Part shown: positions 46,155 to 61,265 of the stretch, piece by piece
Layout: each line of letters begins with the position of its first letter
Numbering within the stretch: the first letter of the stretch is position 1
Assembly: GCA_027694045.1 (NCBI GenBank)
Contig: JAQEWB010000001.1
Coordinates: 434,001-498,000 of the forward strand
DNA length: 64,000 nucleotides
Direction of reading: 5' to 3'
Origin: Bacillaceae bacterium OF18-1A
GTDB taxonomy: Bacteria > Bacillota > Bacilli > Bacillales > Bacillaceae_G
The notes under the pieces: generated by a model
The model's input: the letters and a program-made list of their open reading frames with translations, nothing else
Told to the model about the DNA's origin: nothing
Databases searched by the model: none
Program-made: the position numbers and the translations under genes

Positions 46155-47006
46155 TTACATTACATATTTATATAACGCATGTGCAACACCGTGTTCTTCA
46201 TTTGTTAACGTTTCGTATTGACACATCGCTTTTATTTCTTCAACCGCATTTCCCATTGCAATTGATATATTTGCCTTCTCCATCATTGAAACATCGTTTA
46301 AGCCATCACCTATTGCGACAGTATTTTCAAATGGAATACTAAGATGTTCTGCTAAAGTATATAATCCTTTTCCTTTTTGAGCATCTTGATGATTAATCTC
46401 TAAATTATGCCAGTATGAAGATGTAATTGCTAGATCAGTATTATGCAGAAACTTTTCTTTTAATTTTTTTAATTTCTCTATGTCATAAGAAAACGGTAAT
46501 AGTTTGTGCACATGTATATCAGTTTCTACAATTGGTTTACAACTTTCCGCACTATGAAATGCAGTATGCTCAAGGTATAATGCTGCGATTGTTTCCAATT
46601 CTTTTAAATCAACATTTTCATTGGACTTCTTCACATTCTCAATTTCAACACGAACACTTTCCACACCATATGCAGGAACGTATACACCTTTATCTGTATA
46701 CAGTTGATAATACAAACCATTCTCTTCAAGGTACTCTACAATCTCTAATGCCTGCTTATTTTGAATTGGATATCTCTTCATCATTTTCTTATTTTTATAA
46801 ATAAGTGCACCATTTTCTGCAATAATCGGACACTCAAGATTAACTTCTAATAATAATTTTTCAATATCAACAATAGAACGACCTGTACAAATTGCTACGA
46901 CATGGCCAGCTTCCTGACATTTTCGGATTGCTTCAGCATTCTCTTTACTAATCACTTTATTCCCAGAAAGAAGAGTTCCATCTAAATCAATTGCGATTAA
47001 TTTCAT
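46155..47006 (-). CDS. Cof-type HAD-superfamily sugar-phosphate phosphatase
   Basis: 283 residues. HAD motif I DLDGTLL at residues 7-13, motif II CTGRS, Lys in HQDAQKGKGL and motif IV GDGLNDVSMM near 238, with a C2B cap between. Cof/YidA-type enzymes dephosphorylate sugar phosphates or similar metabolites. The region before the start folds into a nested inverted repeat (47033-47080). Confidence 0.9.
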   Translation of the reverse strand: MKLIAIDLDGTLLSGNKVISKENAEAIRKCQEAGHVVAICTGRSIVDIEKLLLEVNLECPIIAENGALIYKNKKMMKRYPIQNKQALEIVEYLEENGLYYQLYTDKGVYVPAYGVESVRVEIENVKKSNENVDLKELETIAALYLEHTAFHSAESCKPIVETDIHVHKLLPFSYDIEKLKKLKEKFLHNTDLAITSSYWHNLEINHQDAQKGKGLYTLAEHLSIPFENTVAIGDGLNDVSMMEKANISIAMGNAVEEIKAMCQYETLTNEEHGVAHALYKYVM

Positions 47007-47032
47007 TATTTCTTCACCACTTTCTATAAATA

Positions 47033-47080
47033 CACGAGCTCTACTTAAATTCGAGGTATCGTTTTCATACCGATCTCGTG
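47033..47080. repeat. nested inverted repeats in the HAD gene leader
   Basis: CACGAG (47033-47038) pairs with CTCGTG (47075-47080), and inside it GGTAT (47055-47059) pairs with ATACC (47067-47071). Could be an operator or a leader structure. No class recognised. Confidence 0.35.
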
Positions 47081-47183
47081 AAGTACTTCTTATTTATAAT
47101 TTATGAAAAGCGTTTCAGGTCAAGAAATAATTTTAAAAAATATGAATGAAAATGAGATTTATTATCAATACTATGATTAATAA

Positions 47184-47212
47184 AAGGGCAACCACGATTC
47201 GGCTACCCTTCA
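47184..47212 (-). terminator. terminator after the DUF1540 gene
   Basis: AAGGGTAGCC/GGTTGCCCTT stem (two G-U pairs) followed by TTTTATT on the minus strand. Confidence 0.7.
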
Positions 47213-47217
47213 AAAGT

Positions 47218-47373
47218 TTATACTTCTGGATCAAAAGTTTTACAATCTGTTTCTTCCGTTGTAGATGCTTGTTTTCCTTTATGACTCACCACATAAATTG
47301 CATCTGCACTACATTTATTTCCGTTACTCCAAAATTTACAGTTGTTCACTTCACATAATACATCTTGTGCCAT
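47218..47373 (-). CDS. DUF1540 domain protein (small Cys-rich)
   Basis: 51 residues with four cysteines in the DUF1540 spacing: LCEVNNCKFWSNGNKCSADA and TDCKTFDP. The Cys pattern suggests a small metal-binding module; the family is common in spore formers and unexplained. GGAGGTG 7 bp before the ATG decides the start. Own terminator. Confidence 0.88.
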   Translation of the reverse strand: MAQDVLCEVNNCKFWSNGNKCSADAIYVVSHKGKQASTTEETDCKTFDPEV

Positions 47374-47476
47374 AGTATCACACCTCCTTGTTCTTTTATC
47401 ATTAACAAAATTCGGAGGTATGATACTCTTTGAGATGCATTTTACTATAATTTCTAATTAGAAATAAATTTTCAAT

Positions 47477-48751
47477 TTAATGTTCGTGTTGTATTACACC
47501 ACTTTTATCATTACTAGTTGTAACAACCGGTTTTAAATGATAAATCGGTAAAATAAATAATGCCCCAATAATAAATAATAAAGCCGTACTGTCGTACATC
47601 GTACTTAATGAAAACATCTCTTTCAATGAACCAGCTATACTCATCGTTATTACCATGGATCCTGTAAATAGCGGACTTAAAATACCGTTTACTCGACCGA
47701 TAAAATCGGTATCACTATTTTGAATAATAAGTGTGTTAATACCAATTTGGATACAAGGAAGAGCTAACCCACTAAAAAGCTGTGCTATAAGTGTCACCCA
47801 TAAGTTGGTTGAGTAGCCTATTATGCCAATTCCAATTGCCTGACCTAACATACCGACAATTAACATCTTTTGAGGAGCAACGTTTTTCGCAAACATCATC
47901 GCTAAAGCACCGCCGACAATCATCCCTGCACCATTTACTGTTAATAACCATTGCAAACTTTCTTTTGCCAATCCTAATTGTTCTGTCACAATAAATATTC
48001 CAAGTGGCTGGATTAACCCTATGCCAAGTCCAGCTGCCATAAAACATAATCCAAGCAAAGTTAATGCTTTTTTCTTTTTTACATATTTAATACCATCAAG
48101 CATTTCCTGTAAAAGTGTGATGTCTTTTTTCTCTGCTTCGTTTTCAAGATCTTTCGGAAGAAATAATAATACAACCGCAGCAAGCAAAAAAGCGATACCT
48201 GTCATAATGATTGAAATATAGATTCCAAAGCTATGAAAGATAAATGTTCCAAGAATCGGCCCGAGCACCATAAATATTGCAAATATCGTTTGATATATAG
48301 ACATCGCTAATTGAATTTGTTCTGCCGATAAATGCTGCTTAAATAGTTTCATTCCGGACGGTTGAGAAAATTGTGAAAGTATCGCAGAAATGAGCGTCAC
48401 AAAAAATACAATTTTCCACGTTCCAAACATAAGGGTAATTAACACAGCGAATACTGAAATCGAGCTTAACGTTTCACACCATATCATTGTCTTCCTTGGC
48501 TTCCACCTATCAGCAAAAGTTCCACCAATGAAAGAAAAAATAAAAATCGGGGCGAATTCAGCAACTGAAATCATAGAAATAGCAAAAGCATCACCTTTCG
48601 TCATTTCCATTACATACAGTAATACTGCAAAGTTTCGAACCCATATTCCAATTTGTAAAAATAATGCTGATGCGAGAATTCCTTGCACAAATCGATTTTT
48701 CAATACTTGTGATACCCCATGATTTTGTTTCATTTCTGCACTTGTCGACAT
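47477..48751 (-). CDS. MFS transporter (MFS_3, exporter-like)
   Basis: 424 residues, 12 helices. GGTFADRWKPRKTM is the TM2-TM3 loop and the LFSGLALPCIQIGIN region near TM10 is typical of EntS/macrolide-exporter-like carriers. Drug or siderophore export is possible; substrate unknown. The ATG at 48751 is 6 bp after AGGAGGC, a site that can be paired away by an upstream complementary segment (see the hairpin entry). Confidence 0.85.
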   Translation of the reverse strand: MSTSAEMKQNHGVSQVLKNRFVQGILASALFLQIGIWVRNFAVLLYVMEMTKGDAFAISMISVAEFAPIFIFSFIGGTFADRWKPRKTMIWCETLSSISVFAVLITLMFGTWKIVFFVTLISAILSQFSQPSGMKLFKQHLSAEQIQLAMSIYQTIFAIFMVLGPILGTFIFHSFGIYISIIMTGIAFLLAAVVLLFLPKDLENEAEKKDITLLQEMLDGIKYVKKKKALTLLGLCFMAAGLGIGLIQPLGIFIVTEQLGLAKESLQWLLTVNGAGMIVGGALAMMFAKNVAPQKMLIVGMLGQAIGIGIIGYSTNLWVTLIAQLFSGLALPCIQIGINTLIIQNSDTDFIGRVNGILSPLFTGSMVITMSIAGSLKEMFSLSTMYDSTALLFIIGALFILPIYHLKPVVTTSNDKSGVIQHEH

Positions 48752-48757
48752 AGAAAA

Positions 48758-48787
48758 GCCTCCTATTTCATGTTCTGAACAGGAGGC
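48758..48787 (-). promoter_or_regulatory. hairpin masking the ribosome binding site of the MFS gene
   Basis: On the transcript GCCUCCU (48787-48781) is exactly complementary to AGGAGGC (48764-48758), the Shine-Dalgarno of the ATG at 48751; loop 16 nt. Folding would block initiation. May be a translational switch, e.g. ribosome- or drug-responsive. Confidence 0.5.
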
Positions 48788-48814
48788 AGCACAAATCATA
48801 TAAAAGTCTATATA

Positions 48815-48827
48815 TTCGCAGTGCGAA
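48815..48827. promoter_or_regulatory. 13-bp palindrome, operator-like
   Basis: TTCGCAGTGCGAA has 6-bp arms about one central base, 60 bp upstream of the MFS start, next to a TATATA that could be a -10 box. Looks like a repressor site. Confidence 0.4.
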
Positions 48828-49017
48828 ATACATCCCTTTTCTATAAATGTACATACTAATCCTATTCAAAAGAATATTTCGTTTTTTAACGAAGATCTCT
48901 TACAAATAGAATTAGTTGATCATTGGGATGTTTTCACCCTTCCATTTCAAATTTAAATAACACATACATACTCTATGAAAATCATTTATGATGTATGCAT
49001 GTCTTAATGTAACTATT

Positions 49018-50253
49018 CTAGAAAGTCAAAGGTAATTCCTTTAAAGAACGCATTAAATAATTCCCTTGCCATCTAATTTCTGCACGATTACCTTTTATTT
49101 GTAGTGCAGGCATCCGTTGAAACAGTGTAATAATAGCGATTTTTGCTTCTAACCGAGCAAGTGGAGCACCTAAACAGAAATGACTACCATGACCAAAAGC
49201 AATGTGACGATTATTTTCTCTTGTAATATCAAATATCTCTGGTTTTTCAAATACTGATTCATCACGGTTTGCGGAAGCTAATGCAATAATAATCATGTCT
49301 CCTTTTTGGATTGTTTGATCGTGGATTTGAAATGGTTCAGCCGCCCATCTTGCAGTTGTAACCTCGACTGGAGAATAATAGCGCAATCCTTCCTCAATAG
49401 CTGCGTCAATAAAGTTTGGATTATCTTTTAATAACTGTAGTTGCTCCGGATTTTCGAGAAGTGCTAATACCGTATTTGTAATTAAATTCACCGTCGTCTC
49501 ATGTCCCGCTACGATTAGCAACATTATCATTGAATATAGTTCCGGAGCGCTAAGTTTATGCCCTTCACTTTCCGCAAGTATTAAGGCACTCACCAAGTCT
49601 TCTTTTGGCTCTTTTCGTTTTACATCAACTAAATATTGAAGATATGTAATAAACTCAGATAGTTGCATTTCAGTTTCTTTTATTTCCTCTGGCGTTTCTG
49701 GAGAAGCAATGACAGCATGAGACCAAATTCTAAATTTAGCTTGATCTTCTTTTGGAATACCCAGCATTTCACTTATTACAATAATCGGCAAAGGAAATGA
49801 ATAGTCATCAACAAGATTTAATGAACCTTTTTGCTTGATATCATTTAACAGATCATCTGCAACATCCTGAATCCTTCCTTGCAATTGCGTAATCATCTTC
49901 GGTGTAAAAGCTTTTTGTACGAGTGATCGTAAGCGATTATGATTAGGTGGATCTGAATTTAACATATGTGTTGTTAAATGGTCACCATTATCAATAGAAA
50001 GAAACATGTTCATAGTGTCTTGAGAAAACACATTGGTCGGATCTTTTTTTAAGCGATTATCTTTTAAAAGTGGCAGAGCATCTTCATATCTTGTAATAAG
50101 CCATTCTTTCCCCATCTCTACTTGATTCACAAATAATATAGGCTGCATTTTTCGCGATTCTTTATAAATGTCATACGCATCTTCTTTAAATTGAGCAGAT
50201 GATAAATTAATGCCATCCTCTATTTTTCGGCCAACTTTATTTTTCATTGACAT
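49018..50253 (-). CDS. cytochrome P450 (CYP107-like)
   Basis: 411 residues, soluble. Haem ligand Cys360 in FGHGSHFCLGAPLAR, I-helix AGHETT at 249-254, and ExxR as EGLR at 288-291. These are as in Bacillus CYP107 enzymes such as BioI- or PksS-type hydroxylases. No redox partner or biosynthetic gene is adjacent, so the substrate is unknown. AGGA stands 8 bp before the ATG. Confidence 0.92.
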   Translation of the reverse strand: MSMKNKVGRKIEDGINLSSAQFKEDAYDIYKESRKMQPILFVNQVEMGKEWLITRYEDALPLLKDNRLKKDPTNVFSQDTMNMFLSIDNGDHLTTHMLNSDPPNHNRLRSLVQKAFTPKMITQLQGRIQDVADDLLNDIKQKGSLNLVDDYSFPLPIIVISEMLGIPKEDQAKFRIWSHAVIASPETPEEIKETEMQLSEFITYLQYLVDVKRKEPKEDLVSALILAESEGHKLSAPELYSMIMLLIVAGHETTVNLITNTVLALLENPEQLQLLKDNPNFIDAAIEEGLRYYSPVEVTTARWAAEPFQIHDQTIQKGDMIIIALASANRDESVFEKPEIFDITRENNRHIAFGHGSHFCLGAPLARLEAKIAIITLFQRMPALQIKGNRAEIRWQGNYLMRSLKELPLTF

Positions 50254-50375
50254 TGCATGTCCTCACTCTCAATTTTTTTTGAAAACCAACCCAACATTTG
50301 CATTATACCCCAATAAAAATATGAAAATTGTAAATTTTTAATCAAAATCTTACTTCTTATATTGAAAAACAAAAA

Positions 50376-50407
50376 AATGAGAGAGTAAAATCATTCTACT
50401 CCCTCAC
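50376..50407 (-). terminator. terminator after the coat-like gene
   Basis: GAGGGAGTA/TTACTCTCTC hairpin followed by T7 on the minus strand. Confidence 0.7.
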
Positions 50408-50413
50408 TCTTCT

Positions 50414-50818
50414 TTAAGCAAAGCACATAAAATTACTAATTTGTTGATAACGATAACTTACTTTACGACGGCGACCACCTTGCCAAGTGTACCCTGAAAC
50501 CCCATTTCTTCTAACTTCAGTCGGAAAGAACCATAAATCTCTTCCGAAAGGTCCTGAGCGATGCAAACGCAAATATCCCCATCTTCCCAAACAGTTACAC
50601 ATCCATGATTTCATATTGCCCGCTTGTGCTGGAGAAGCAAATGTAGACGGTAGCGACGGAGCTTGTGACGGTGGTGGTGACGTTGGAGCATCTTCCGCAT
50701 CATCGGGTCTATAATCTTCTGGTTCCATATCCCTCACTTCATTTCTAGATTCATAACTGTATTGCTGTGGATTATAATACATTGGTTGATCGTATGGATA
50801 ATTTTGCTGGTTATACAT
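50414..50818 (-). CDS. Tyr/Gln/Pro-rich, spore-coat-like protein
   Basis: 134 residues. The first 55 residues are Tyr/Gln/Asn/Pro-rich (MYNQQNYPYDQPMYYNPQQY), then an acidic part and a Pro/Ser linker, then a basic, Trp/Arg/Tyr-rich C-terminal domain (SWMCNCLGRWGYLRLHRSGP ... KVSYRYQQISNF). This composition resembles coat or exosporium proteins, but I know no named family. AAGGTGA precedes the ATG. Single gene. Confidence 0.5.
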   Translation of the reverse strand: MYNQQNYPYDQPMYYNPQQYSYESRNEVRDMEPEDYRPDDAEDAPTSPPPSQAPSLPSTFASPAQAGNMKSWMCNCLGRWGYLRLHRSGPFGRDLWFFPTEVRRNGVSGYTWQGGRRRKVSYRYQQISNFMCFA

Positions 50819-51140
50819 AATAACAAATCACCTTCTTTTCATTCATTACCTTTAACATTCATATGTGATATGCCCTCTATAGGAAGCTTATGTATCGCCT
50901 AAATTTAACTAAAAAATAAAGCTCGTATTTAAAAATACGAGCTTTTTCATAAAAGGAATAGATGTATTATTTTCTTAACTTCACACTATAAAAGCGCATT
51001 TCATCTAGTGAACCTACAAATTCAAATACTTCTTGTTTAATTAATTCCTTTCAGTGCAAGTATTTAAACGGTTTATCTTTAGTATGAATGGGTGAAATTT
51101 GCTGCATTTTTTCAATTGCAAATTATTTATAGAGTATTCA
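50819..51140. other. intergenic region with a terminator and a short degenerate coding scrap
   Basis: AAAGCTCGTATTT/AAATACGAGCTTT with T run at about 50918-50950 is a clear terminator for the membrane gene on the minus strand. Between 50970 and 51055 a minus-strand frame reads EVFEFVGSLDEMRFYSVKL and stops without a start. It may be the tail of a lost gene. Confidence 0.45.
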
Positions 51141-51905
51141 TTACGCATTATACCTATTCTTTCTACGTTCCATCCTTGTTTGTCCTTGAACAGTATCCTC
51201 TTTGTATTGATCTATTTCCTCTTTCATTTCATAAGTTACAGCTGGTTCTTCGTAATTATGCTTATGGACTCCTTCTGGATTTTTACGTTTAGACGTCTTT
51301 CTCCCAAACTTAAATAATTTCATTTTTAATTTTGGTAATCTTGGAAGACGGACATTAAATGATAGCCTTTTGCGTTTCTTTTTTTGTTGAAATAGATTTG
51401 TATTCTCTTTATTATCTTTCTCTTTGCGGTGTATTAACATCGCAAGTAATCCCCCTAAGATAAGACCTCCAATTAAAAATAGAAGATATACATATTGACT
51501 TGTCATTAAGCTCGTCATGCGTTCAAGTATAACTAACGACTGTACTTCTTTTATATCCCATAGTAAAGCGCCCCATAATGAGAATAAGCCCAAAGTAAGC
51601 CCATATGTACGAAAACGGAATAAACACGGAATTAACGCGATACAAGCGGCGATTTTTGCATTCGAAATTATTGAACTTGTTGATATATCCTGGTTCCAAA
51701 TGATTAACAATAGTGTTATAAATGGTGCATACGCTATCCAACTACATATACGTGAATATATCTTTTTCGCAAAATAACTACCGAAACTAGTAAAAAATAA
51801 TAGTCCTCCAATATATAATGACTGTTCTAGTGGGATTTGCTTTATAATTCCTGCAATTGGAAAGAGGGCGCTCAGTAGCATTAATAGCACATCTAATTTC
51901 TTCAC
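51141..51905 (-). CDS. membrane protein with six helices and a basic cytoplasmic tail
   Basis: 254 residues from a GTG with AAAGGA upstream. Hydrophobic helices at about 5-20, 29-45, 53-70, 82-95, 101-115 and 134-155. The tail is strongly basic (KKKRKRLSFNVRLPRLPKLK near 177) and then acidic (YEMKEEIDQYKEDT). I recognise no family. The basic tail suggests contact with nucleic acid or phospholipid. Confidence 0.65.
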   Translation of the reverse strand: MKKLDVLLMLLSALFPIAGIIKQIPLEQSLYIGGLLFFTSFGSYFAKKIYSRICSWIAYAPFITLLLIIWNQDISTSSIISNAKIAACIALIPCLFRFRTYGLTLGLFSLWGALLWDIKEVQSLVILERMTSLMTSQYVYLLFLIGGLILGGLLAMLIHRKEKDNKENTNLFQQKKKRKRLSFNVRLPRLPKLKMKLFKFGRKTSKRKNPEGVHKHNYEEPAVTYEMKEEIDQYKEDTVQGQTRMERRKNRYNA

Positions 51906-52092
51906 AATTCCCCATTCCTTTCAAATTACTTTTCATATGATATAGTTTTTATATTTCTAAAAATCATCTTAATCCTGTATGTAAATAAAGTAAATATGAA
52001 AAAGAAAAGATACATGACAAAGGGTAACCTTATTTACATGAAAAAATGACAAATCCTGATCAATATAATGAGCAGGATTTGTTTGCAATTAT

Positions 52093-54504
52093 TTAAAGTA
52101 GAATGATTTCATCTTTATTTTTTAACTTCATTACATCTATATCTAATTCATCATCGAATTCTTTCAATTCTCTCGCATCTATATCAGTGATGTAACTCTT
52201 TAATAATTTAGCCATATGCATAGAATATGGCATGTGTACATTTTTTTCTGCAAGCATGCTAGAATTGCAGCACATATAATGCAGCATTTTAGCGATACAA
52301 TCCCTTTCTACAGGATGTACACCTAACGGTAGTATTTCAATCATACATTGTCGCAACGTTTCGCTACCATTTAATGCGTATTCACCAAAGCTATAATACA
52401 TTCCTTGCTGATCGACATATAAACCAGTTCCATCCGTAACATCCTCACGTTCTATCACAGTATAGCTTGGCACATCAAAAGTTGTATTTATTCTTATGAC
52501 GTTTAAATTAGGAACTGTTAACATATCCGAAATATTTTCAGGTAAAGTATTTATATCAATTTTTTCATTTTGTAACTCTTTTATCCAATGCTGTCTCATA
52601 TTCGCATCTACAATGAAATAAACTTGTTCATTCTGTTCTTTCGCACACTGTAAAATTTCCATTAATGTTTCAAAAATAAATTGTTTAAACAGTTGACCCA
52701 TATCATTTCTTTTTGATGGTTGCGGTAAAAAAAGATTATATTTATTTATGTTTAATAATACATTATCAATCGGTTTCCACTCTATATCTCCATACAATTT
52801 ATATGAAATTTCTCTACCTTTTATTTTCGAAAAAACAGGTAAGAAATCGACTTTCGAAATTTGTTCAATCGATAAATTAATATATATACAAGGTACATTT
52901 ATCTTATTCCAACTACGTTTCAAAAACCCTTTTTGTTCCAATAAATGTAAAATGCTATTTACAATAACTTCATAAGATACGCTTTGACCTATCAATAAAT
53001 TAATAAATGCTGAAATGCGTTTTGTTCGTGCAAATCCTTCACGAATGATTTGTTTTGGATCAATCTTCTCACGCCCGTCACAACCTTTCATTGCAATCAA
53101 TGCCAGTGTCGTATCACTTCGATCACCCGCAGTAGCATGAACAGCTGTCACAACATCATCTACTAAATTCATTTTATATTTCTGACAATATTGCATTTTA
53201 TATGGGTTTTGTAACACCTTTTCAAGGTTAAAATTCACTACCTTTAACAATACTGGAGAATCTGTATTTAAAACATAAAAAGCTTCACTAATTTTAGCTA
53301 AAACAATTTCACTATCAAATAATGCTTCTTCTATTTCTAGTGGTAAATTTTCAGACCATACCTCTAACGTAATCGTTTCTAATCCTTTCGGTGCAAATAA
53401 AGGGAAACATGTATTTACATGACTTGTTACAACCTTTTTACATTCTGGAAGTAATGAGAAATAAGGAAATTCTCTTTGAAATTCTTTAAACAGATACTCC
53501 CGCTCCTCTGCTTTTATGCCACGCTTTATTTTAGTACCTTGAACTTTATATACTCTCTCATTATATGGAAGTAGTACCCTTCTATTCGTACCAACGATAT
53601 AATCTTTCGGATATTGAAGAACATGGTCTAACTCTACTTCTCCACCTATATGAAAGCTATCTTTTAAATTTCTAAATAGCTTAATCCATTTCATGCCGTT
53701 TGTTGCTTGTTGTACTTTTAGTTTTACAAATCGCAGTTTTTTATTATTTAAAGTAAAATCTGGAGGAGAAATCAATATGACGCCCCGTTTGCGTCTCCAA
53801 AGTAAAGAAATATCTGGATGATTATAATCTTGGTAGAACCTCCGAATACCTATTGAAACATTTAATAATGGAATATTCTCTCCTCCGCGAGTTATACATT
53901 CAAATCGATATACAAAAGCAAAAAAATCTTTTGTTTTTTCATCTTTAATCGGTTCTGACATGGCTTCACAAACATTTTTGGCTCTAAGCGGAGAAAAATA
54001 AATTTTTTCTTCATTTGTATTTTCTAATTGTATAGGGCGTTCACAAAAAATATGTGAGATTAAAGCAGGCACCCACTTAAAATAAGTTTCATTATCATGT
54101 AATACTGGCAAATTAGAAATCAAATCGTAATGCCATTCATATTTTGGTAATTCTATTAATTGATTCGGTTTCCAATCATGAATAACTTCATACCAACTTT
54201 GGAAAATATAAGTAAGTTGTTCTTGTATAATCGGTTCTTTTGATACGATCCATGGTGTATTTTCATTTAATACATACGGATTATGTTGAATAAATAAAAT
54301 ATCAGAAAACATATCATACAATCTTTCATTCAAGTGTTTCAACTTACTCTTTAATAAAAACGTTTTATAATGTATCTCTACAATGTCTAGCCATTCAATA
54401 GGAAAATATATAAATGATACACTTTCATTTAAAAGAGGTTCTACTATATTATTAAATGTTAATAGTTGTAATTTTTCCATATAATGAGTACCCACTTTCT
54501 TCAT
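52093..54504 (-). CDS. pPIWI_RE family protein (prokaryotic PIWI/RNase H-like, DUF3962 type), stand-alone
   Basis: 803 residues. Family landmarks: the N-terminal half with FSPLRAKNVCEAMSEP and ISLLWRRKRGVILISPP; the MID-like middle with KKVVTSHVNTCFPLF; then KQIIREGFARTKRISAFINL preceding the RNase H-like domain; QVYFIVDANMRQHWIKELQN; GTGLYVDQQGMYYSFGE; and the terminal GVHPVERDC ... MPYSMHMAKLLKSYI. These follow the order in pPIWI_RE proteins, named for conserved Arg and Glu residues and predicted to act in defence against foreign nucleic acid. Usual partners (a restriction endonuclease-like protein and a DinG-type helicase) are absent. ATG 54480 is an alternative start; neither has a strong binding site. 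Confidence 0.8.
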   Translation of the reverse strand: MKKVGTHYMEKLQLLTFNNIVEPLLNESVSFIYFPIEWLDIVEIHYKTFLLKSKLKHLNERLYDMFSDILFIQHNPYVLNENTPWIVSKEPIIQEQLTYIFQSWYEVIHDWKPNQLIELPKYEWHYDLISNLPVLHDNETYFKWVPALISHIFCERPIQLENTNEEKIYFSPLRAKNVCEAMSEPIKDEKTKDFFAFVYRFECITRGGENIPLLNVSIGIRRFYQDYNHPDISLLWRRKRGVILISPPDFTLNNKKLRFVKLKVQQATNGMKWIKLFRNLKDSFHIGGEVELDHVLQYPKDYIVGTNRRVLLPYNERVYKVQGTKIKRGIKAEEREYLFKEFQREFPYFSLLPECKKVVTSHVNTCFPLFAPKGLETITLEVWSENLPLEIEEALFDSEIVLAKISEAFYVLNTDSPVLLKVVNFNLEKVLQNPYKMQYCQKYKMNLVDDVVTAVHATAGDRSDTTLALIAMKGCDGREKIDPKQIIREGFARTKRISAFINLLIGQSVSYEVIVNSILHLLEQKGFLKRSWNKINVPCIYINLSIEQISKVDFLPVFSKIKGREISYKLYGDIEWKPIDNVLLNINKYNLFLPQPSKRNDMGQLFKQFIFETLMEILQCAKEQNEQVYFIVDANMRQHWIKELQNEKIDINTLPENISDMLTVPNLNVIRINTTFDVPSYTVIEREDVTDGTGLYVDQQGMYYSFGEYALNGSETLRQCMIEILPLGVHPVERDCIAKMLHYMCCNSSMLAEKNVHMPYSMHMAKLLKSYITDIDARELKEFDDELDIDVMKLKNKDEIILL

Positions 54505-54721
54505 TTAAATTTAGTTATCTAAAAAATATTCATTTCTATAAATTTAAATAATATGATATAAATGAAATTCTAATGAAAGCAGTAATGGCTTATACTCTAC
54601 ATTTTATTACATAATGCATATATATCCCCCCTAGACCTTATTAATTCTTTATATTTAAATTATATAATATAAAGTGAGTATTGTATTTACAATTTACGAA
54701 AACTTTACAAAAAAATATGTA
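54505..54721. other. promoter region of the pPIWI_RE gene
   Basis: AT-rich, no gene. Ends at the terminator of the adjacent structured transcript. Confidence 0.4.
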
Positions 54722-54750
54722 AAAAGAGATATTATCTATACCTCTTTGTA
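54722..54750 (-). terminator. rho-independent terminator downstream of the tenA region
   Basis: AAAGAGGTAT/ATATCTCTTT hairpin followed by TTTTTAC on the minus strand. Confidence 0.65.
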
Positions 54751-54773
54751 GCAACTTCTTTACCTCGATATTT

Positions 54774-54868
54774 GCGGACAGTAAGCCTCCCCCACCTCAA
54801 AATTAGGCGAATGCATGGGGGGACAACTATCCGTAAAAGCCTAATTAGTAGGGATGAAGATCCCCCAA
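54774..54868. ncRNA. GC-rich structured element, candidate non-coding RNA or mobile-element remnant
   Basis: In an AT-rich gap, about 95 bp hold nested complements: CGGAcAGT/ACTaTCCG at the ends, CCCCCA/TGGGGG inside, AATTAGGC against GCCTAATT (which would form a pseudoknot across the first hairpin), and GGGAT/ATCCC. A terminator follows at 54722 on the minus strand, so transcription from tenA direction is likely. I match it to no known RNA family. Confidence 0.45.
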
Positions 54869-54881
54869 TTAAAGTTTCACT

Positions 54882-55571
54882 TTAGCTAATCTTATCTTTT
54901 ACAGTTGTATTCACTGGCCACTTCTCTAAAGTATAAGCCATTTCCCAAAATGAATATTCATATTGACTACTAATAATGAAATGCTGTTTCATACGCTTAC
55001 GATCTGATTCGGTTACTTTATCAGCAATTGCATCTAACCGTGCAATTTGCTCTTCCACTAGCGTACGGAACCAATCAGATCCATAAGCGGAAATCCATTC
55101 TTTATAAATTGGCTCTTCTGGTTGACACTCTTTTAAACGTTCACCAATTTCATAATATAACCAGTAGCAAGGCAAAATTGCTGCAATAATATCTCCTAAA
55201 TGTCCTTCATATGCAGCGCGATACATATGTGAAGTATACGCATATGCTGTTGGTGCAGGAATGAAATCATCTTTTTCTTCTTTTGTAATCCCTAGCTTTT
55301 TCGCAAAAATTTCATGTAAAGATAATTCCGCCTCGTATGTATTTTGTGCATGATGTGCCATACGTGCTGTCGTTTCTAATTCAAGCGCTTTTGCAGCTCC
55401 TAAAGCTTGTACTCTAGCAAAATGGCTTAAATAATAGGAATCTTGAAGTACGTAATATCGAAAACTATCTATATCTAACGTTCCTTCACCAAGCTTTTTT
55501 ACAAAAGGATGATTAAAGCTTGCTTCCCAAATTGAATCTACTTCTTTACGTAATGATTGTGAAAAAGTCAT
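54882..55571 (-). CDS. tenA: aminopyrimidine aminohydrolase / thiaminase II TenA
   Basis: Hydrolyses aminomethyl- or thiamine-derived pyrimidines to HMP for thiamine salvage. 229 residues, family length. Residues typical of TenA: FVKKLGEGTLDIDSFRYYVLQDSYYL, the catalytic Cys in AAILPCYWLYYEIG (near residue 136) and the late SSQYEYSFWEMAY with its Glu. Controlled by the TPP riboswitch upstream. GGAGGG 8 bp before the ATG. No other thi gene follows on this transcript. Confidence 0.95.
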   Translation of the reverse strand: MTFSQSLRKEVDSIWEASFNHPFVKKLGEGTLDIDSFRYYVLQDSYYLSHFARVQALGAAKALELETTARMAHHAQNTYEAELSLHEIFAKKLGITKEEKDDFIPAPTAYAYTSHMYRAAYEGHLGDIIAAILPCYWLYYEIGERLKECQPEEPIYKEWISAYGSDWFRTLVEEQIARLDAIADKVTESDRKRMKQHFIISSQYEYSFWEMAYTLEKWPVNTTVKDKIS

Positions 55572-55633
55572 TTAAATCCCTCCAATAATGTATAAAATAT
55601 AAGTATTTATCCACAATTATTAAAGCTGTAAAA

Positions 55634-55666
55634 TAAAAAAACTTTCTTTACAGGCGTAAAGAAAGT
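55634..55666 (-). terminator. expression-platform terminator of the TPP riboswitch
   Basis: ACTTTCTTTAC/GTAAAGAAAGT perfect stem with GCCT loop and T7 on the minus strand. Confidence 0.88.
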
Positions 55667-55702
55667 GAAATTGACAGTATTTATTTAATCATTAAATAGC
55701 AA

Positions 55703-55800
55703 CGTCTTTCCCACTTCCCTACGCTGGCATTAACCAGATCAGGTACTAAGAGTCTCAAAATCATATTTGATCTCAGCCTATAAAAGGCCCCCCTAGTGGA
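55703..55800 (-). ncRNA. TPP riboswitch (THI element)
   Basis: The minus strand contains GGCTGAGA (pyrimidine-binding arm), ACCTGATCTGGTTAATGCCA and GCGTAGGGAAGTGG, with P1 CCACT/AGTGG. Thiamine pyrophosphate should stabilise the downstream terminator and turn off tenA. Confidence 0.97.
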
Positions 55801-55876
55801 TAAATATTTAGTTATCGTATTGTAACCATCATAGCATACTTCACGGAACTGTCAAAAGTATTAATACTATACTAGC

Positions 55877-56791
55877 TTAAAAACCTTCTTCTTTCCTTAC
55901 TTTTAATGATGTTTCAATTATCATATCTAATAGTTTACTATAATTAATTCCCGCTGCATCTGCACTTTTTGGCAGTAAACTTGCTTTTGTCATTCCAGGT
56001 AACGTATTAATCTCCATTACATATGGAATTCCGTCCTTCACCATCATATCAACCCTTGCATAAACACTACATTTTAATGCTTTATAACAAGCAAGGGATG
56101 CTTTATTTACACGCTTCTGTATATCAGTTGGAAGTTCTATAACTTCTTCAATTGTCCCAGCATCATCATATTTTGCATTGTAGTCAAAAAACTCAGCCGC
56201 ATGTCGAATCGAAATAATAGGTAACTGTTTTCCATCAAAAATTGAACATGTAATTTCGTCACCTTTTATATATTTTTCAATCACTACTTCAGAATCCCAC
56301 TCGAATACAGTTTCTAACATAGAGATTAATTCATTTTTATTATAGACGATTTTCACTCCGACGCTCGAACCACCAGAGTTTGGTTTTACCACTAATGGAA
56401 AACCTAATTTCTCTAATTCTTCAAGGTTTAAATCCTCCATTTTTGTAAGTTCAATCCAATCAGGTGTTTCTACTCCTTCGTAACGCAAAATCTTTTTCGA
56501 AAGATTTTTGTCCATACATATACCACTAGACAACATATTACTACCGCTATAAGGAATACCTAGACTTTCAAGTGTTCCTTGAACTGTCCCATCTTCTCCA
56601 TATTTTCCGTGTAATGCGAGCAGCGCAAAATCAATGTCTTTTGCTTTTTCGATTAAATCTATTTTTTCATCTAACGTAATTGGAACTATTTCATATTTAC
56701 TCTTATCTAAGTTTGCAATCATTTCATTTCCAGTCATAATGGATACTTGTTTTTCAGAGGATACGCCTCCCATAATAACACCAATTCTCAT
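55877..56791 (-). CDS. ddl: D-alanine--D-alanine ligase
   Basis: Makes D-Ala-D-Ala for peptidoglycan precursors, using ATP. 304 residues. ATP-grasp features: IGVIMGGVSSEKQVS at 3-17 (D-Ala site), LHGKYGEDGT, VKPNSGGSSVGV (ATP loop), and EINTLPGMT near 267 with metal ligands. Its ATG overlaps the stop of the MocR regulator gene by 4 bp (ATGA), so the two are translationally coupled. B. cereus group genomes have another ddl, so this is the regulator-linked copy. Confidence 0.95.
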   Translation of the reverse strand: MRIGVIMGGVSSEKQVSIMTGNEMIANLDKSKYEIVPITLDEKIDLIEKAKDIDFALLALHGKYGEDGTVQGTLESLGIPYSGSNMLSSGICMDKNLSKKILRYEGVETPDWIELTKMEDLNLEELEKLGFPLVVKPNSGGSSVGVKIVYNKNELISMLETVFEWDSEVVIEKYIKGDEITCSIFDGKQLPIISIRHAAEFFDYNAKYDDAGTIEEVIELPTDIQKRVNKASLACYKALKCSVYARVDMMVKDGIPYVMEINTLPGMTKASLLPKSADAAGINYSKLLDMIIETSLKVRKEEGF

Positions 56792-58245
56792 TTTCTCAAC
56801 TCCAAATCCTCATTTTTTAAAGTGTCGCCAATTATTTTAATGCCATTAACTATTTCCTTTTCTTTCAAGCGCGAGAAACCTAATCGGAATGTATTCGCTC
56901 CGCCTCCATCAGAATAAAAAACATCTCCCGGAGAAAACGTAACACCTTTCTCATAACATTTTTGCAACAATGTACGAGCATGAATATTTTCTTCTAACTC
57001 TATAAACAAATGTAGTCCGCCATCTCCAGTCATTCTTTTAAACGGAATGTACTGATTACACGCTTCCACGGCTAACTCATATTTTTTCTTATAAACAGAT
57101 CTTGCCTTTTTTAAATACTTTTCAAAATAGCCTTCATGTAAATATTGAAATAAAACAGCTTGATCTAGCGTAGATGTATGAATAGTTCTCGCTCTTTTTA
57201 CACTCTCTAAATAATGAATCAGTTCTTTATCTGCGATAATCCAACCTACACGTAAGCCAGGGAAAAGCACCTTTGAAAAACTACTAATATAAATCACATT
57301 ATTACCAGCTCCCGCAAAAGTTAATAACGGCGCTAAATGTGAACCTGAATAGCGTAATTCCTCATTAAACCCATCTTCGATAATCGGAATTTTGTACTTA
57401 GAAAATAACCTCATCAATTCCGTTCTTTTCTCTGAACTTGTAACAATACCTGTTGGATTATGATAAGAAGGAATTAAATATGCAAAATCAAATTCCTTTT
57501 CACGCAAACTTTTTTCTACTTCATTCGTATCAATACCATCATCATTCATATTTATCCCATGAACTTCAAGTCCATGTAAACGGAAAAGCTTAAGTGCAGC
57601 ATGGTGAGTTGGATTTTCACAAATGACACGACCGGATTTTTTTGATAAAGAAGAGAGTACAATATCTAATCCTTCAGTAAATCCATTTGTGATTAGAATA
57701 TCTTTGTTTGAAATATCTACACCTTTCATTTCCATATAGTGAAGTAAATAATTCATTAATGGTCGATAACCTTTTGCATAGCCGTAGTTCAACACAATAT
57801 CTCCTTCAATGGACATACGAGTAAGAAAAGCTCTTTTGAAATTTTCAACGTCAAACAGCTTTTCATCTGGAGCTATGCTATTAAATACAATCATTCCTTT
57901 TTCCCAGCGAACACCATGCTTCATTAAGTCTAATTCATCAGCTAATGTAGTAACTGTATTGAGTTTGTTTTTCCAATCTATTTCAACAGATGAATTGTTA
58001 CATATATCCACCTTCTCAACAAAGTTCCCTTTTCCTTTAACTGCATAAATGAGTCCTTCTTGTTCTAAATCCGCATAAGCAGCGAGTACAGTATTTCTGC
58101 TCACAGATAATAATTCACTCAGCTCCCTAGTTGATGGGATTTTTTGATTTCCTAACAAGTGCCCTTTCATAATCATCTTTTTTAAATAATCTTTCAATTG
58201 AATATAAACGGGACGATCTTTTACAACTTTAAAATCTTTGAACAA
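56788..58245 (-). CDS. MocR-type regulator (GntR wHTH fused to class I aminotransferase)
   Basis: 485 residues. Residues 10-78 are a GntR winged helix (PVYIQLKDYLKKMIMKG, KIPSTRELSELLSVSRNTVL); the rest is an aminotransferase-fold PLP domain with the Schiff-base Lys in SSFSKVLFPGLRVGW near 325 and NPTHHAALKLF. MocR proteins sense PLP-linked amino compounds. Overlap with ddl suggests it controls D-Ala-D-Ala supply, like DdlR of Brevibacillus, perhaps sensing D-Ala-PLP. TTG start after GGGGGTAAGGAA. Confidence 0.88.
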   Translation of the reverse strand: MFKDFKVVKDRPVYIQLKDYLKKMIMKGHLLGNQKIPSTRELSELLSVSRNTVLAAYADLEQEGLIYAVKGKGNFVEKVDICNNSSVEIDWKNKLNTVTTLADELDLMKHGVRWEKGMIVFNSIAPDEKLFDVENFKRAFLTRMSIEGDIVLNYGYAKGYRPLMNYLLHYMEMKGVDISNKDILITNGFTEGLDIVLSSLSKKSGRVICENPTHHAALKLFRLHGLEVHGINMNDDGIDTNEVEKSLREKEFDFAYLIPSYHNPTGIVTSSEKRTELMRLFSKYKIPIIEDGFNEELRYSGSHLAPLLTFAGAGNNVIYISSFSKVLFPGLRVGWIIADKELIHYLESVKRARTIHTSTLDQAVLFQYLHEGYFEKYLKKARSVYKKKYELAVEACNQYIPFKRMTGDGGLHLFIELEENIHARTLLQKCYEKGVTFSPGDVFYSDGGGANTFRLGFSRLKEKEIVNGIKIIGDTLKNEDLELRK

Positions 58246-58378
58246 TTCCTTACCCCCTGCAATTATTTTTACATACTTACTTCATTCTCAAAAGGTCCAC
58301 TGCATATGTATTTTTTATTACTAGCGGTATGGTCTTACAAAGTAAAACTCTAATTAACCCTTACCAACCGGACGTTTA

Positions 58379-59419
58379 CTACCCGTTAATACTAGACAAA
58401 TCTTTACGGTATAGGTTAATGACATCTTTTAAAGCAGCAGCTGCTGCTCCGCGTGGATTAGAAGCCCCGCCAATTGTAGTGATTTGTCCCATTGTATCTG
58501 TAAAGAACGTAATTCCTTTTTCTGTCCCATTTACTTTTGCTAACGGATGATCTTTTTCGATTGCAAAAGGTTCTACATTAAGACTCACTTTCCCCTTCTC
58601 ATCTTTATGTGCTGATGCAATTAATTTCATGTATTTATTTTGTTCCTTAGCATTTCGTATTTGCTGTATTGTAACGTTCTCGATTCCTTTTATATGTATA
58701 TTTGTAAGCGTATTATCTAATCCCATTAAACTGTTTGTTAAAAGTAGTAATTTACATGCACTATCTGAACCACTTACATCCAATGCTGGATTCGTCTCAG
58801 CAATACCTTTATTTTTTGCTTCTTGTAAAGCCTCTTCAAATGTAATATCTTCTTCATACATTTTTGTAAGAATATAATTAGTCGTCCCGTTTAAGATTCC
58901 TTCTATTTTCTCAATATCGCAGCCAGCTAAACTAAATTTTCCAATATCTAGAGTTGGTAGTGCTGCTGCAGTTGCCCCACTATATCGAATCCGTACATTC
59001 GCTATTTTTGCCGCTTCATTTATTTCTTTCCAGCTTGTAACGAGCGCACCTTTTGAAATTGCAACTATATCCATATGTTTATCAATCGCTTGTTTCATAT
59101 ATTGTTTCCCTGGATTTCCATCTTTAAGATTGGTAACAGTTGATTCTACCAATACCGTACCACTTATGCTATTGGTTGCTCGTTCCTTCGGGTGATCTTC
59201 TAAATATTTTTCAATTGCAGCAGTACCCTCACCATGCATCAATAAATGTTTAGTAGATAAACCATCCTCATTATGTATGGCAATATTTCTACCCAATACG
59301 CCACTTACAATTAATTGAATTCCATATGTTTCATTTATATATAAACATTTTTCATTTAATAATTTTATAAACTCTCTGCCTACTGTTCCGTATCCTGATA
59401 ATACAACTTGAATTTTCAT
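58379..59419 (-). CDS. homoserine dehydrogenase (short form, no ACT domain)
   Basis: 346 residues. N-terminal NAD(P) motif VVLSGYGTVGREF, then ISKGALVT and NGTTNYILTKM, EAQ..G.AE-type segment LQEAKNKGIAETNPALDV and the catalytic-domain Lys. Converts aspartate semialdehyde to homoserine. It lacks the C-terminal ACT domain found in the feedback-regulated Hom of the thr operon, so it is probably a paralogue free of threonine inhibition. Two adjacent ATG codons (59422, 59419) follow GGGGGG. The TnpB element ends about 45 bp upstream. Confidence 0.88.
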   Translation of the reverse strand: MKIQVVLSGYGTVGREFIKLLNEKCLYINETYGIQLIVSGVLGRNIAIHNEDGLSTKHLLMHGEGTAAIEKYLEDHPKERATNSISGTVLVESTVTNLKDGNPGKQYMKQAIDKHMDIVAISKGALVTSWKEINEAAKIANVRIRYSGATAAALPTLDIGKFSLAGCDIEKIEGILNGTTNYILTKMYEEDITFEEALQEAKNKGIAETNPALDVSGSDSACKLLLLTNSLMGLDNTLTNIHIKGIENVTIQQIRNAKEQNKYMKLIASAHKDEKGKVSLNVEPFAIEKDHPLAKVNGTEKGITFFTDTMGQITTIGGASNPRGAAAAALKDVINLYRKDLSSING

Positions 59420-59465
59420 CATATCCCCCCATATTTTTCTATCAAGTCCCTCTTTCAATATAATG

Positions 59466-59751
59466 TCAACTATCCCACTGAGATAGAACGTTCCAGTGGG
59501 GGCTTGAGTTAGAACACTAGGTCTTTTCGTCTATCACTAGACAGTTTGACGCTCTAGCATTCATGCCACTTTACGGTAACACCCCAAGTATGTTTTTGGT
59601 TGGTACTGGCAACGAACGATTGTTTTCCCACTTGCACCACCCTTTCGAAAAAGAGCAGTTCTTTCTTGCGAAAGAAGCCACCGCTCAGATGAATCCGGCG
59701 TGTGCTACAAGCCCCGACACGTCGAGTACACATGGATGGTTGACGCACCCA
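59466..59751 (-). ncRNA. probable omega RNA (reRNA) of the TnpB element
   Basis: TnpB guide RNAs derive from the 3' end of tnpB and the right end of the element. The 286 bp after the tnpB stop are distinctly more GC-rich than the neighbourhood, hold no gene, and contain several hairpins (for example TCTTTCGCAAGAAAGA near 59660). The guide would be the sequence beyond 59465 on the minus strand, which is the leader of the hom gene. Confidence 0.6.
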
Positions 59752-61107
59752 CTAAGCTATGCGCGAAGCAACAGCCTTACGTTTTTGCACTTCTAATAGA
59801 ATCGGCGTTTTCACTTTGAGATTGTCATCCAATGCTACAACTCTTGATTTTTGCAATGTATTCAATGCACCATTAATATCAGCGTGGATACATGTTCCCG
59901 CTTTACTTTGGTACAGGCCACGAGTGATTCGTTTGCCACTAAAGATATACTGCATCTTATCATCCTTAGACCAAACTGGAACCCTATCTTTGTCTAGGAA
60001 ACTGGCTTTTGAAGTATAGCTTTCTTCTTGTTTTAAAAATCGGATACCTTCTTTTACACACTTATTCTCAATCGCTGCCATCAGTTTATGAAATGGAATT
60101 TGAACAAATGTTTGATTATTCTTTTTCCCCATATCAGATTTTTGTTTCCAACCCATGTTATACCCTACAACAATCGTATCTATATCGAATTCTTTCGCTT
60201 TTTTGAACAACAGGCCTACCGTTTGTGAAATGTAACCATTTATTTGTCTTTCTCGTTTATCCCAAAGTGCAGCCATTTGATTCGTTACTACACGTTTAGA
60301 AAGTCCATTTCCCACATTTTTCTGTTGCAGGTTACGTATCATTTTGTTGAAGTATTGGTTAATAGATTTTAATTTTTTTCCATCAATTAAAAATGTATCA
60401 CCTGTATTGGTTGCGCAACTTACTAATCTATCTACACCTAAATCGCAACTCAAAGCGTTATTCGTAGTCGTGGATGGTTTCTTCATTTGAGAAACGTGCA
60501 TCTCATATGTGTAATGCACCTCAAAGAACCGACCTTTTTGCTTCGGTACAATCTCAATGTAGGAGATTTTTTTATTTCTTAGATTTTTAGGCATACGTAT
60601 TTTAAGAGAACCAAATTTTTTCCTGAATGCCACATTCATCGGAATCATCCAATATCCATTATCATCCACCTTTGGCACTTGATAGATTTCAATGATTCGT
60701 TTGTCAGTGGAACAAGAATAATTCGGAAATTTAGGACGACCTGTGAATGTCTCAGGATTTTTCTTCCATTGTTCCAACGCTTTAAAAAAGCTCTTCACTT
60801 CTGTAAATAAGGCCCTACGAATCGCTTGAACAGAGTTAGATTGTACGCCAGAGTAGTTCATATCGGTTTGCATGGCAGTGTCCACTTCTTTTACAGTAGC
60901 CATCCTGTTATTGTTCAAGTAACTTTGTTTCATCGTGTACAATCCAACATTTCGCAATGCTTTTGAACTATGCGACATGCGCTTAAGTAAACGAAATTCT
61001 TTTGCAGTAAGGCAAGCTCGTCCGATATTTTGTTTCTGCGTGAATCGTTGTATGGTTTCTCTTTTCTTTTGTTTACGTAATACTTTTACTGCTTTCTTTC
61101 TGGCCAT
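59752..61107 (-). CDS. tnpB: RNA-guided endonuclease TnpB (IS200/IS605 OrfB)
   Basis: 451 residues. Basic N-terminus (residues 1-25), the OrfB helical region, then a RuvC-like nuclease: Asp222 in CDLGVDRLVS, and Asp410 in CIHADINGALN. The usual Glu of a VVEDLN-type motif is replaced: here VVGYNMGWKQ near 313-322, with EESYTSKASF (Glu361/362) as a candidate relocated acid. The CxxC zinc ribbon is missing. This matches the IS1341-like subgroup with rearranged active site. ATG at 61107 follows AGGTGG. Confidence 0.92.
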   Translation of the reverse strand: MARKKAVKVLRKQKKRETIQRFTQKQNIGRACLTAKEFRLLKRMSHSSKALRNVGLYTMKQSYLNNNRMATVKEVDTAMQTDMNYSGVQSNSVQAIRRALFTEVKSFFKALEQWKKNPETFTGRPKFPNYSCSTDKRIIEIYQVPKVDDNGYWMIPMNVAFRKKFGSLKIRMPKNLRNKKISYIEIVPKQKGRFFEVHYTYEMHVSQMKKPSTTTNNALSCDLGVDRLVSCATNTGDTFLIDGKKLKSINQYFNKMIRNLQQKNVGNGLSKRVVTNQMAALWDKRERQINGYISQTVGLLFKKAKEFDIDTIVVGYNMGWKQKSDMGKKNNQTFVQIPFHKLMAAIENKCVKEGIRFLKQEESYTSKASFLDKDRVPVWSKDDKMQYIFSGKRITRGLYQSKAGTCIHADINGALNTLQKSRVVALDDNLKVKTPILLEVQKRKAVASRIA

Positions 61108-61159
61108 TGTTTTCACCACCTTTCTGAGAGGGATTATTAAAATTATTTTTGATAAATTA

Positions 61160-61265
61160 ACATTTAGAAAAAAATGGAACAAGAACATATTCTTCATCGT
61201 AATTCCTTTTGGTGCAAGTAACCGAATGATGATGATCCAATTTCGTTGTCTTACAATCTATTCCC
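61160..61265 (-). pseudogene. remnant of tnpA (Y1 HUH transposase)
   Basis: After AGGAGGGA the minus strand reads (ATA)DCKTTKLDHHHSV, which matches the opening of IS200/IS605 TnpA proteins, then departs into CTKRNYDEEYVLVPFF and stops. The start codon seems mutated to ATA and the HUH and Tyr regions are gone. Confidence 0.5.

Follow-up and report, generated by a model that had tools for sequence, protein, structure and literature searches.

Stand-alone genes for pPIWI-RE proteins, which lack the restriction endonuclease (REase) and DinG helicase partners encoded with other members of the family, were already listed in Bacillus by Burroughs, Iyer and Aravind in 2013, who also drew one of their family search queries from Bacillus thuringiensis (PMC3702460, cited from the parts available to us). 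The gene described here lies at 52093..54504 on the reverse strand of a 64,000-nucleotide stretch of DNA, hereafter the window, from contig JAQEWB010000001.1 of Bacillaceae bacterium OF18-1A (positions 434,001 to 498,000), and it shares with the listed genes its family, its genus and the lack of REase and DinG. Because that list exists, a stand-alone pPIWI-RE gene as such is an already known kind and not new. Section 6 and the accessible passages of the 2013 paper make no mention of a prophage attachment site in such genes or of their splitting in lysogens; we find that temperate phages of two kinds use the pPIWI-RE gene as attachment site, each kind with its own integrase and core.

PsPIWI-RE of Pseudomonas stutzeri, as presented in the available sections of PMC10991935, resembles the window protein in its N-terminal, MID and PIWI parts and in its R and E residues, and both RNA-guided DNA cleavage and DNA-guided RNA cleavage have been reported for it in vitro. 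It is encoded with a DinG helicase and, according to its authors, an RNase, whereas the window gene has no such partners within 64 kb. A tblastn search of the window with six partner proteins from REase-DinG-pPIWI-RE triads found neither partner (best E 0.29), and the absence of the usual partners claimed in an earlier note on this DNA therefore holds throughout the window. The three triads used for comparison (L058, L059 and L060, with partner domains confirmed by Pfam in L058 and L059) lie on plasmids of Nostoc and Streptomyces, where the pPIWI-RE gene stands behind REase and helicase genes; the triad pPIWI-RE proteins share the window protein's three Pfam domains (L058 and L059 scanned), but the window gene is accompanied by neither REase nor helicase.

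Prophage contigs of IMG/VR, searched with the family alignment, hold parts of the gene at 57 loci on 53 contigs and no whole copy. These parts cover residues 1-227 (42 loci), residues 224-803 or a portion thereof (4), residues 1-374 (9) and residues 364-803 (2), and they define two classes of insertion. In all four contigs that contain both ends of an element, gene halves lie at the two ends and share a core, which is the 14-bp sequence TATCAAGAATATAA at both junctions of two class 1 contigs and the 13-bp sequence AAAATGAATTATT at both junctions of two class 2 contigs; contig positions give element lengths of about 36.6 to 41.5 kb. The class 1 site in the window maps to 53822..53835 on the reverse strand (codons 224-228), which departs from the core of the lysogens at 2 of 14 bases, and the class 2 position to 53405..53417 on the same strand (codons 363-367), where 5 of 13 bases differ, the class 2 cut falling 418 bp further on than the class 1 cut. 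Since the window gene is whole, its attachment site is unoccupied. The class 1 core starts inside the near-invariant motif GIRRFYQ, each position of which is kept in 66-68 of 68 rows, while the class 2 site falls where the alignment with short and single-module Argonautes sets in (model residues about 350 to 367), so that it cuts the N-terminal region from the putative guide-binding half. Both sites part the N-terminal portion from the MID-PIWI module. No report of a prophage inside an Argonaute-type gene was found among the matches listed, which were mostly titles and abstract starts and covered subscription journals little.

The two classes are set apart by their integrases. An integrase open reading frame (ORF) of at least 300 residues lies beside attL in 40 of the 42 class 1 loci (not in L039 or L053) and in all nine class 2 loci. 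Members of class 1 share 88.9% identity or more and members of class 2 90.7% or more, against 31-34% from one class to the other, and one protein of each class was confirmed as a tyrosine integrase (Pfam Phage_integrase). The class 1 loci fall into 35 groups at 95% (up to 9.5 kb compared) and into a single group at 50%, which makes these phages one broad lineage, and the nine class 2 loci form 6 groups. AimR is the receptor of the arbitrium system, and an AimR-like gene was detected by tblastn (25-100% identity) in 39 of 42 class 1 loci, the others being L046, L048 and L057, of which L048 holds just 1.8 kb of phage sequence; the one class 1 protein tested matched AimR in Pfam (PF22871, E=1.1e-45). 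The same tblastn search gave no AimR-like match in the nine class 2 loci, all of which carry genes that we take to encode an ImmA-like peptidase and a cI-like repressor, names that we placed on their Pfam and PHROGs matches. Tail, lysis, anti-repressor and replication genes, found in one contig per class, mark these two contigs as real phage DNA. All records of known phage isolates that match the class integrases (3346 and 2051 records) are less than 60% identical to them, the best matches in the phage collection reaching 36.1% and 43.4% identity among those listed.

Several genes carried by these elements were noted in passing. Near attR of class 1 phages lie an AbiTii gene (L001:6057-6740, forward strand) and, in L003:7239-9432 (forward strand), genes for a 347-residue protein without a Pfam match and an AAA-type kinase-like protein. 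This cargo differs from one class 1 phage to another, and defence genes of the prophage's own may arrive with it where the host gene is broken. A 363-residue protein encoded between integrase and AimR (L014:4385-5476, reverse strand) has no Pfam or PHROGs match and recurs in 2 of 42 class 1 loci, itself counted, and is perhaps phage cargo. In the class 2 lysogen L007, inspection by eye showed a terminase-like gene and collagen-like repeat proteins (L007:5049-8414), which lie some kb upstream of the gene's split copy and may belong to another phage-related element nearby.

Single-sequence queries of IMG/VR with three control genes, all of them chromosomal neighbours (P450, homoserine dehydrogenase and MFS transporter by their Pfam names), returned no locus; a query of the same kind with the pPIWI-RE protein returned 21 loci, all of them gene parts and one on a new contig (L075). 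Presumed split copies also appear in the protein database, where 562-residue proteins, every one starting at residue 242, make up 18 of the 90 relatives. We took these as class 1 remainders from their start at residue 242 and their match to the ORF behind attR in L001, an assignment made on the proteins and not on their contigs; this search could not have picked up C-parts or N-parts of class 2, which are too short. In a tree of 86 C-terminal parts, 18 of them labelled split, the split label requires 10 changes, at least 9 of which are forced by well-supported branches. Shuffled labels are less clustered, needing 16.6 changes on average with none of 500 shuffles as low, which means fewer splitting events than split copies. 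Eight proteins (P0054, P0061, P0083, P0084, P0087, P0091, P0092 and P0093) were omitted from the tree in advance, and three shorter ones (P0081, P0082 and P0088) were kept in it unlabelled. Among the 42 class 1 loci, 41 have an N-part that stays open as far as the junction, and by tblastn it is unbroken in 8 of 9 class 2 loci; the exceptions, L053 and L052 respectively, are frame-broken. Two split C-parts are identical to intact copies across 562 compared columns. Because of these open N-parts and identical C-parts the splits appear young or reversible; as judged from the sequences, splitting has occurred many times, recently or reversibly.

Elements that split a host gene have precedents in Bacillus, each cited here from parts of its source. 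The prophage phIS3501 sits in the haemolysin II gene hlyII of B. thuringiensis and is thus a B. cereus-group prophage that splits a host gene, with a 13-bp core and excision upon induction (PMC3335513); its target gene differs from the pPIWI-RE gene. SPbeta likewise splits spsM in B. subtilis (PMC4191935), and gin splits gerE in B. cereus ATCC10987, its ends having a 9-bp sequence in common (PMC5595907). The gin element is said to depend on a serine recombinase and to be controlled by sporulation, whereas tyrosine integrases and two element types in a single gene are found here. A further candidate parallel, seen in part (PMC13216270), was dropped, as it concerns hsdR mutants and not prophages in a defence gene.

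The ORF encodes 803 residues from its ATG and is matched by both Pfam and PADLOC models. Its true start is probably at 54480, giving 795 residues, because most full-length homologues (793-797 residues) are annotated from the ninth codon. Three Pfam domains of the family, all scoring above their curated cut-offs, lie on the reverse strand: the N-terminal X domain pPIWI_RE_X (53431..54432, residues 25-358; PF13111, E=1.2e-21), the MID domain MID_pPIWI_RE (52999..53229, residues 426-502; PF18157, E=1.7e-6) and the RNase H-like PIWI domain RNaseH_pPIWI_RE (52186..52848, residues 553-773; PF13032, E=8.7e-28), which includes D633, R671 and E723. The PADLOC PprPIWI model covers residues 9-786 (E=1.5e-251), and an NCBIfam scan of the 803-residue protein gave no match. 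R671 and E723 are conserved in 90 of 91 alignment rows, the remaining row being gapped there, and in 15 of 15 rows once triad members from the Nostoc and Streptomyces plasmids are added; by our own assignment from the alignment, they would correspond to the Arg and Glu after which the family was named, residues that are absolutely conserved and sit on the beta-sheet extension of PIWI. A predicted model of the protein (mean predicted local distance difference test score, pLDDT, 64.5) was compared with PDB structures, and 24 of the 25 matches at E<=1e-3 are Argonaute, PIWI or SPARTA entries; a PDB sequence search with the family profile gave nothing meaningful (best E 0.2). The earlier note had called this a pPIWI-RE protein and named profile search and structure prediction as checks, and the three family domains, the R and E residues and the Argonaute-like predicted fold all bear the assignment out.

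The catalytic residues are less straightforward. A catalytically active PIWI domain (DEDX) is expected to carry one Asp on strand 1 and another on strand 4, and PsPIWI-RE has catalytic D525 and D610 (PMC10991935, available sections). The window protein carries D633, but close to the position of the first Asp there is only a Glu, E547. Across residues 538-552, which cover strand 1 of the RNase H fold, Asp occurs in none of the 91 rows and E547 is kept in 89, as is D633, a candidate second catalytic Asp. E547 precedes D633 by 86 residues, and the D525-D610 spacing of PsPIWI-RE is 85; because a conserved E547 lies near that spacing, the missing strand-1 Asp is no proof of inactivity. Where the family is described to have an extra helix, behind the initial three-stranded meander of the RNase H fold, the model was read at the level of whole strands and helices: it places strands at 540-548, 553-562 and 565-570, followed by helices at 581-584 and 600-623.

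All organism-named proteins among the 90 relatives come from Bacillus, mostly from species of the B. cereus group, with identity falling to 52% in B. clarus, 47% in B. gaemokensis, 45% in B. cytotoxicus and 35% in B. manliponensis. Alignment-based searches added only three distant proteins of 932-971 residues, one of which, used as a query, found pPIWI-RE-like genes on 8 plasmids; two scans of the genome-contig collection found no relative. At least 780 residues are present in 65 of 91 alignment rows. The gene has the appearance of an old chromosomal gene that the B. cereus group has inherited vertically, and its distribution is like that of long vertical descent within one group and not of a mobile defence gene. 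The ratio of nonsynonymous to synonymous substitution rates (dN/dS) between window and lysogen copies is 0.11-0.13 over codons 9-223, as measured at 6 loci, and 0.20-0.24 over the C part, as measured at 3, with values of 0.24 and 0.31 between the C-parts of lysogens. By these values the gene is evidently under purifying selection, the PIWI half changing faster than the N half.

The next gene in the window, encoding a DUF3959 membrane protein (51141..51905, reverse strand; PF13105, E=1.2e-78; dN/dS 0.12-0.16 in 2 loci), comes after the pPIWI-RE gene at 3 of 3 loci whose sequence extends to it, and the earlier note had raised the possibility that the two form one system. This was not accepted, since the genes are set apart by a terminator-like hairpin (52049..52082, reverse strand; none of 200 shuffles folded as stably, z -4.15) with T-rich sequence behind it, so that shared synteny, their only link, is enough to explain the pairing; a simple terminator scan did not list the hairpin. 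Upstream lies a conserved stretch (54642..54741, reverse strand; 36 distinct sequences compared), to which related sequence occurs at 46 of 57 loci. It contains a TATAAT hexamer and, in the majority of relatives, a pair of TTGTAAA repeats, the second of which reads TCGTAAA in the window. This stretch is probably the gene's own promoter, and the gene is probably transcribed alone because the stretch is conserved in relatives and the hairpin lies downstream in the window. A promoter consensus scan neither supports nor excludes this, giving one weak match (54692-54664) and fewer promoter-like matches in the region (11) than in shuffles (20.2). The TTGTAAA pair, 11 bp apart in most of 35 distinct relatives, is possibly a regulator site.

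The earlier note had also named as a neighbour a structured intergenic element (54774..54868), which lies between tenA and the pPIWI-RE gene. Its folding is dependent on borders, with z -1.35 on the forward and z -2.31 on the reverse strand, and z -3.58 (1 of 200 shuffles as stable) on the reverse strand for 54765-54880. An Rfam scan found no family at gathering score, and a match to a nematode small nucleolar RNA is taken as due to chance (22.2 bits against 50 required, E=0.24). Relatives of its first part (54756-54815, about 80% identical) occur inverted, 1.8-3.3 kb upstream, in 15 of 57 loci. A role as guide RNA or cis element was rejected on the missing Rfam family and these inverted copies, and the element is probably a dispersed chromosomal repeat outside the pPIWI-RE system.

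The wider surroundings contain tenA with its thiamine pyrophosphate (TPP) riboswitch (55699-55804), a T-box, an S-adenosylmethionine (SAM) riboswitch and the Bacillus small RNA ncr1575. Together with the homologues, these features make an origin of the window in the B. cereus group probable. Nine further neighbours (46155-61197) are metabolic, transport or unassigned genes and one transposon gene, which encodes a 481-residue IS605-type OrfB/TnpB-like protein (59752-61197, reverse strand; PF01385, E=1.7e-18; PF07282, E=2.1e-07; PADLOC Cas12f, E=2.8e-10). A family of proteins of about 110-160 residues containing FVPLSQSSICLADC, recognised by eye (L014:1607-2092, L055:1-480 and L003:13427-13756), is encoded upstream of the pPIWI-RE gene in several of the relatives, whereas in one other its gene stands downstream of DUF3959.

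We favour, at a probability of roughly 0.55, the reading that the gene encodes a vertically kept, guide-binding PIWI protein that works without REase and DinG and is disrupted on lysogeny, the prophages being a reversible off-switch. Guide loading and binding of complementary nucleic acid by the window protein are most likely by analogy with PsPIWI-RE, as described in available parts of PMC10991935. Short guides would be loaded in the MID pocket and would direct the protein to complementary nucleic acid of DNA that invades the cell or over-replicates, RNA/DNA hybrids being the probable targets, and this DNA would then be blocked or nicked. The split copies suggest that lysogeny may switch the gene off: a new lysogen would lose the whole protein until its prophage excises, and through this loss the prophages would act as a reversible off-switch. 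The link to Argonaute and the repeated breakage by phages suggest a defence role, while vertical descent and the ciprofloxacin phenotype of the Pseudomonas relative (PMC10991935, in part) suggest a role in DNA damage or replication stress.

Several observations weigh against this reading. Prophages often sit in dispensable genes, and splitting alone shows no benefit; no excision was seen. Collections of plasmids (72,556 records) and phages (50,697) held no match to the window protein at E 1e-5, which is unusual for a defence gene. Eight of the nine neighbouring proteins in 46155-61197 match no PADLOC defence model and the ninth, which matches the Cas12f model, is TnpB-like, so that no defence island lies nearby. 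Deletion of PsPIWI-RE, which is encoded with dinG, leads to ciprofloxacin sensitivity, and the section on the deletion contains no phage test (PMC10991935, in part). An immune role against phages or plasmids, and a benefit to the phage from disruption, are inferences. The stronger claim, that the integrases of two distinct temperate phage lineages have converged on an Argonaute-type immune gene, so that lysogeny itself reversibly knocks out the host's immunity to the phage and its relatives, seems to us rather doubtful.

A serious alternative, though one we consider only tentatively, is that the protein serves the cell in housekeeping or under stress by acting on its R-loops or replication forks, as was suggested for PsPIWI-RE, and that the prophages merely land safely in a gene that is conserved and dispensable. 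The vertical-looking pattern within one Bacillus group, with deep branches at 35-52% identity, is what this would predict, as are the metabolic and transport neighbours, an N-part dN/dS (0.11-0.13) resembling that of neighbouring DUF3959 (0.12-0.16) and the ciprofloxacin phenotype of PsPIWI-RE (PMC10991935, in part); the near-invariant GIRRFYQ in which the class 1 core begins would offer a stable target to any integrase. However, a gene that receives two integrases of only distant kinship, each with its own core, is more than a single landing site would give, and the 10 changes of split state suggest that the gene is dispensable under some conditions.

It is quite improbable, in our judgement, that the insertions form a developmental switch like skin in sigK or SPbeta in spsM, with excision under set conditions such as sporulation restoring the gene. 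Spore formers provide precedents (PMC5595907 and PMC4191935, in part), and the open N-parts (41 of 42 class 1 and 8 of 9 class 2 loci) together with the two C-parts identical to intact copies indicate young or reversible splits, but recent insertion accounts equally well for intact halves, and L053 and L052 are frame-broken. Moreover, the integrases here are tyrosine integrases (one per class tested), against the serine recombinases of sporulation rearrangements (PMC5595907, in part), and a sporulation link for the gene was neither found nor searched for. A functionless, decayed remnant of a former three-gene system would fit the missing REase and DinG partners in the window and the strand 1 without Asp, but is already disfavoured and very improbable given dN/dS of 0.11-0.24, 65 of 91 rows with at least 780 residues and a conserved upstream region.

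For stand-alone pPIWI-RE proteins, described in 2013, we found no report of a function, and the phages themselves hint at a possible reason for selection on the gene. Natural lysogens and non-lysogens of related strains constitute pairs without and with the whole protein. If the attachment sites were selected for the benefit that a broken gene brings to the prophage, this would amount to counter-defence of a simple kind, in which integration is itself the inactivation.
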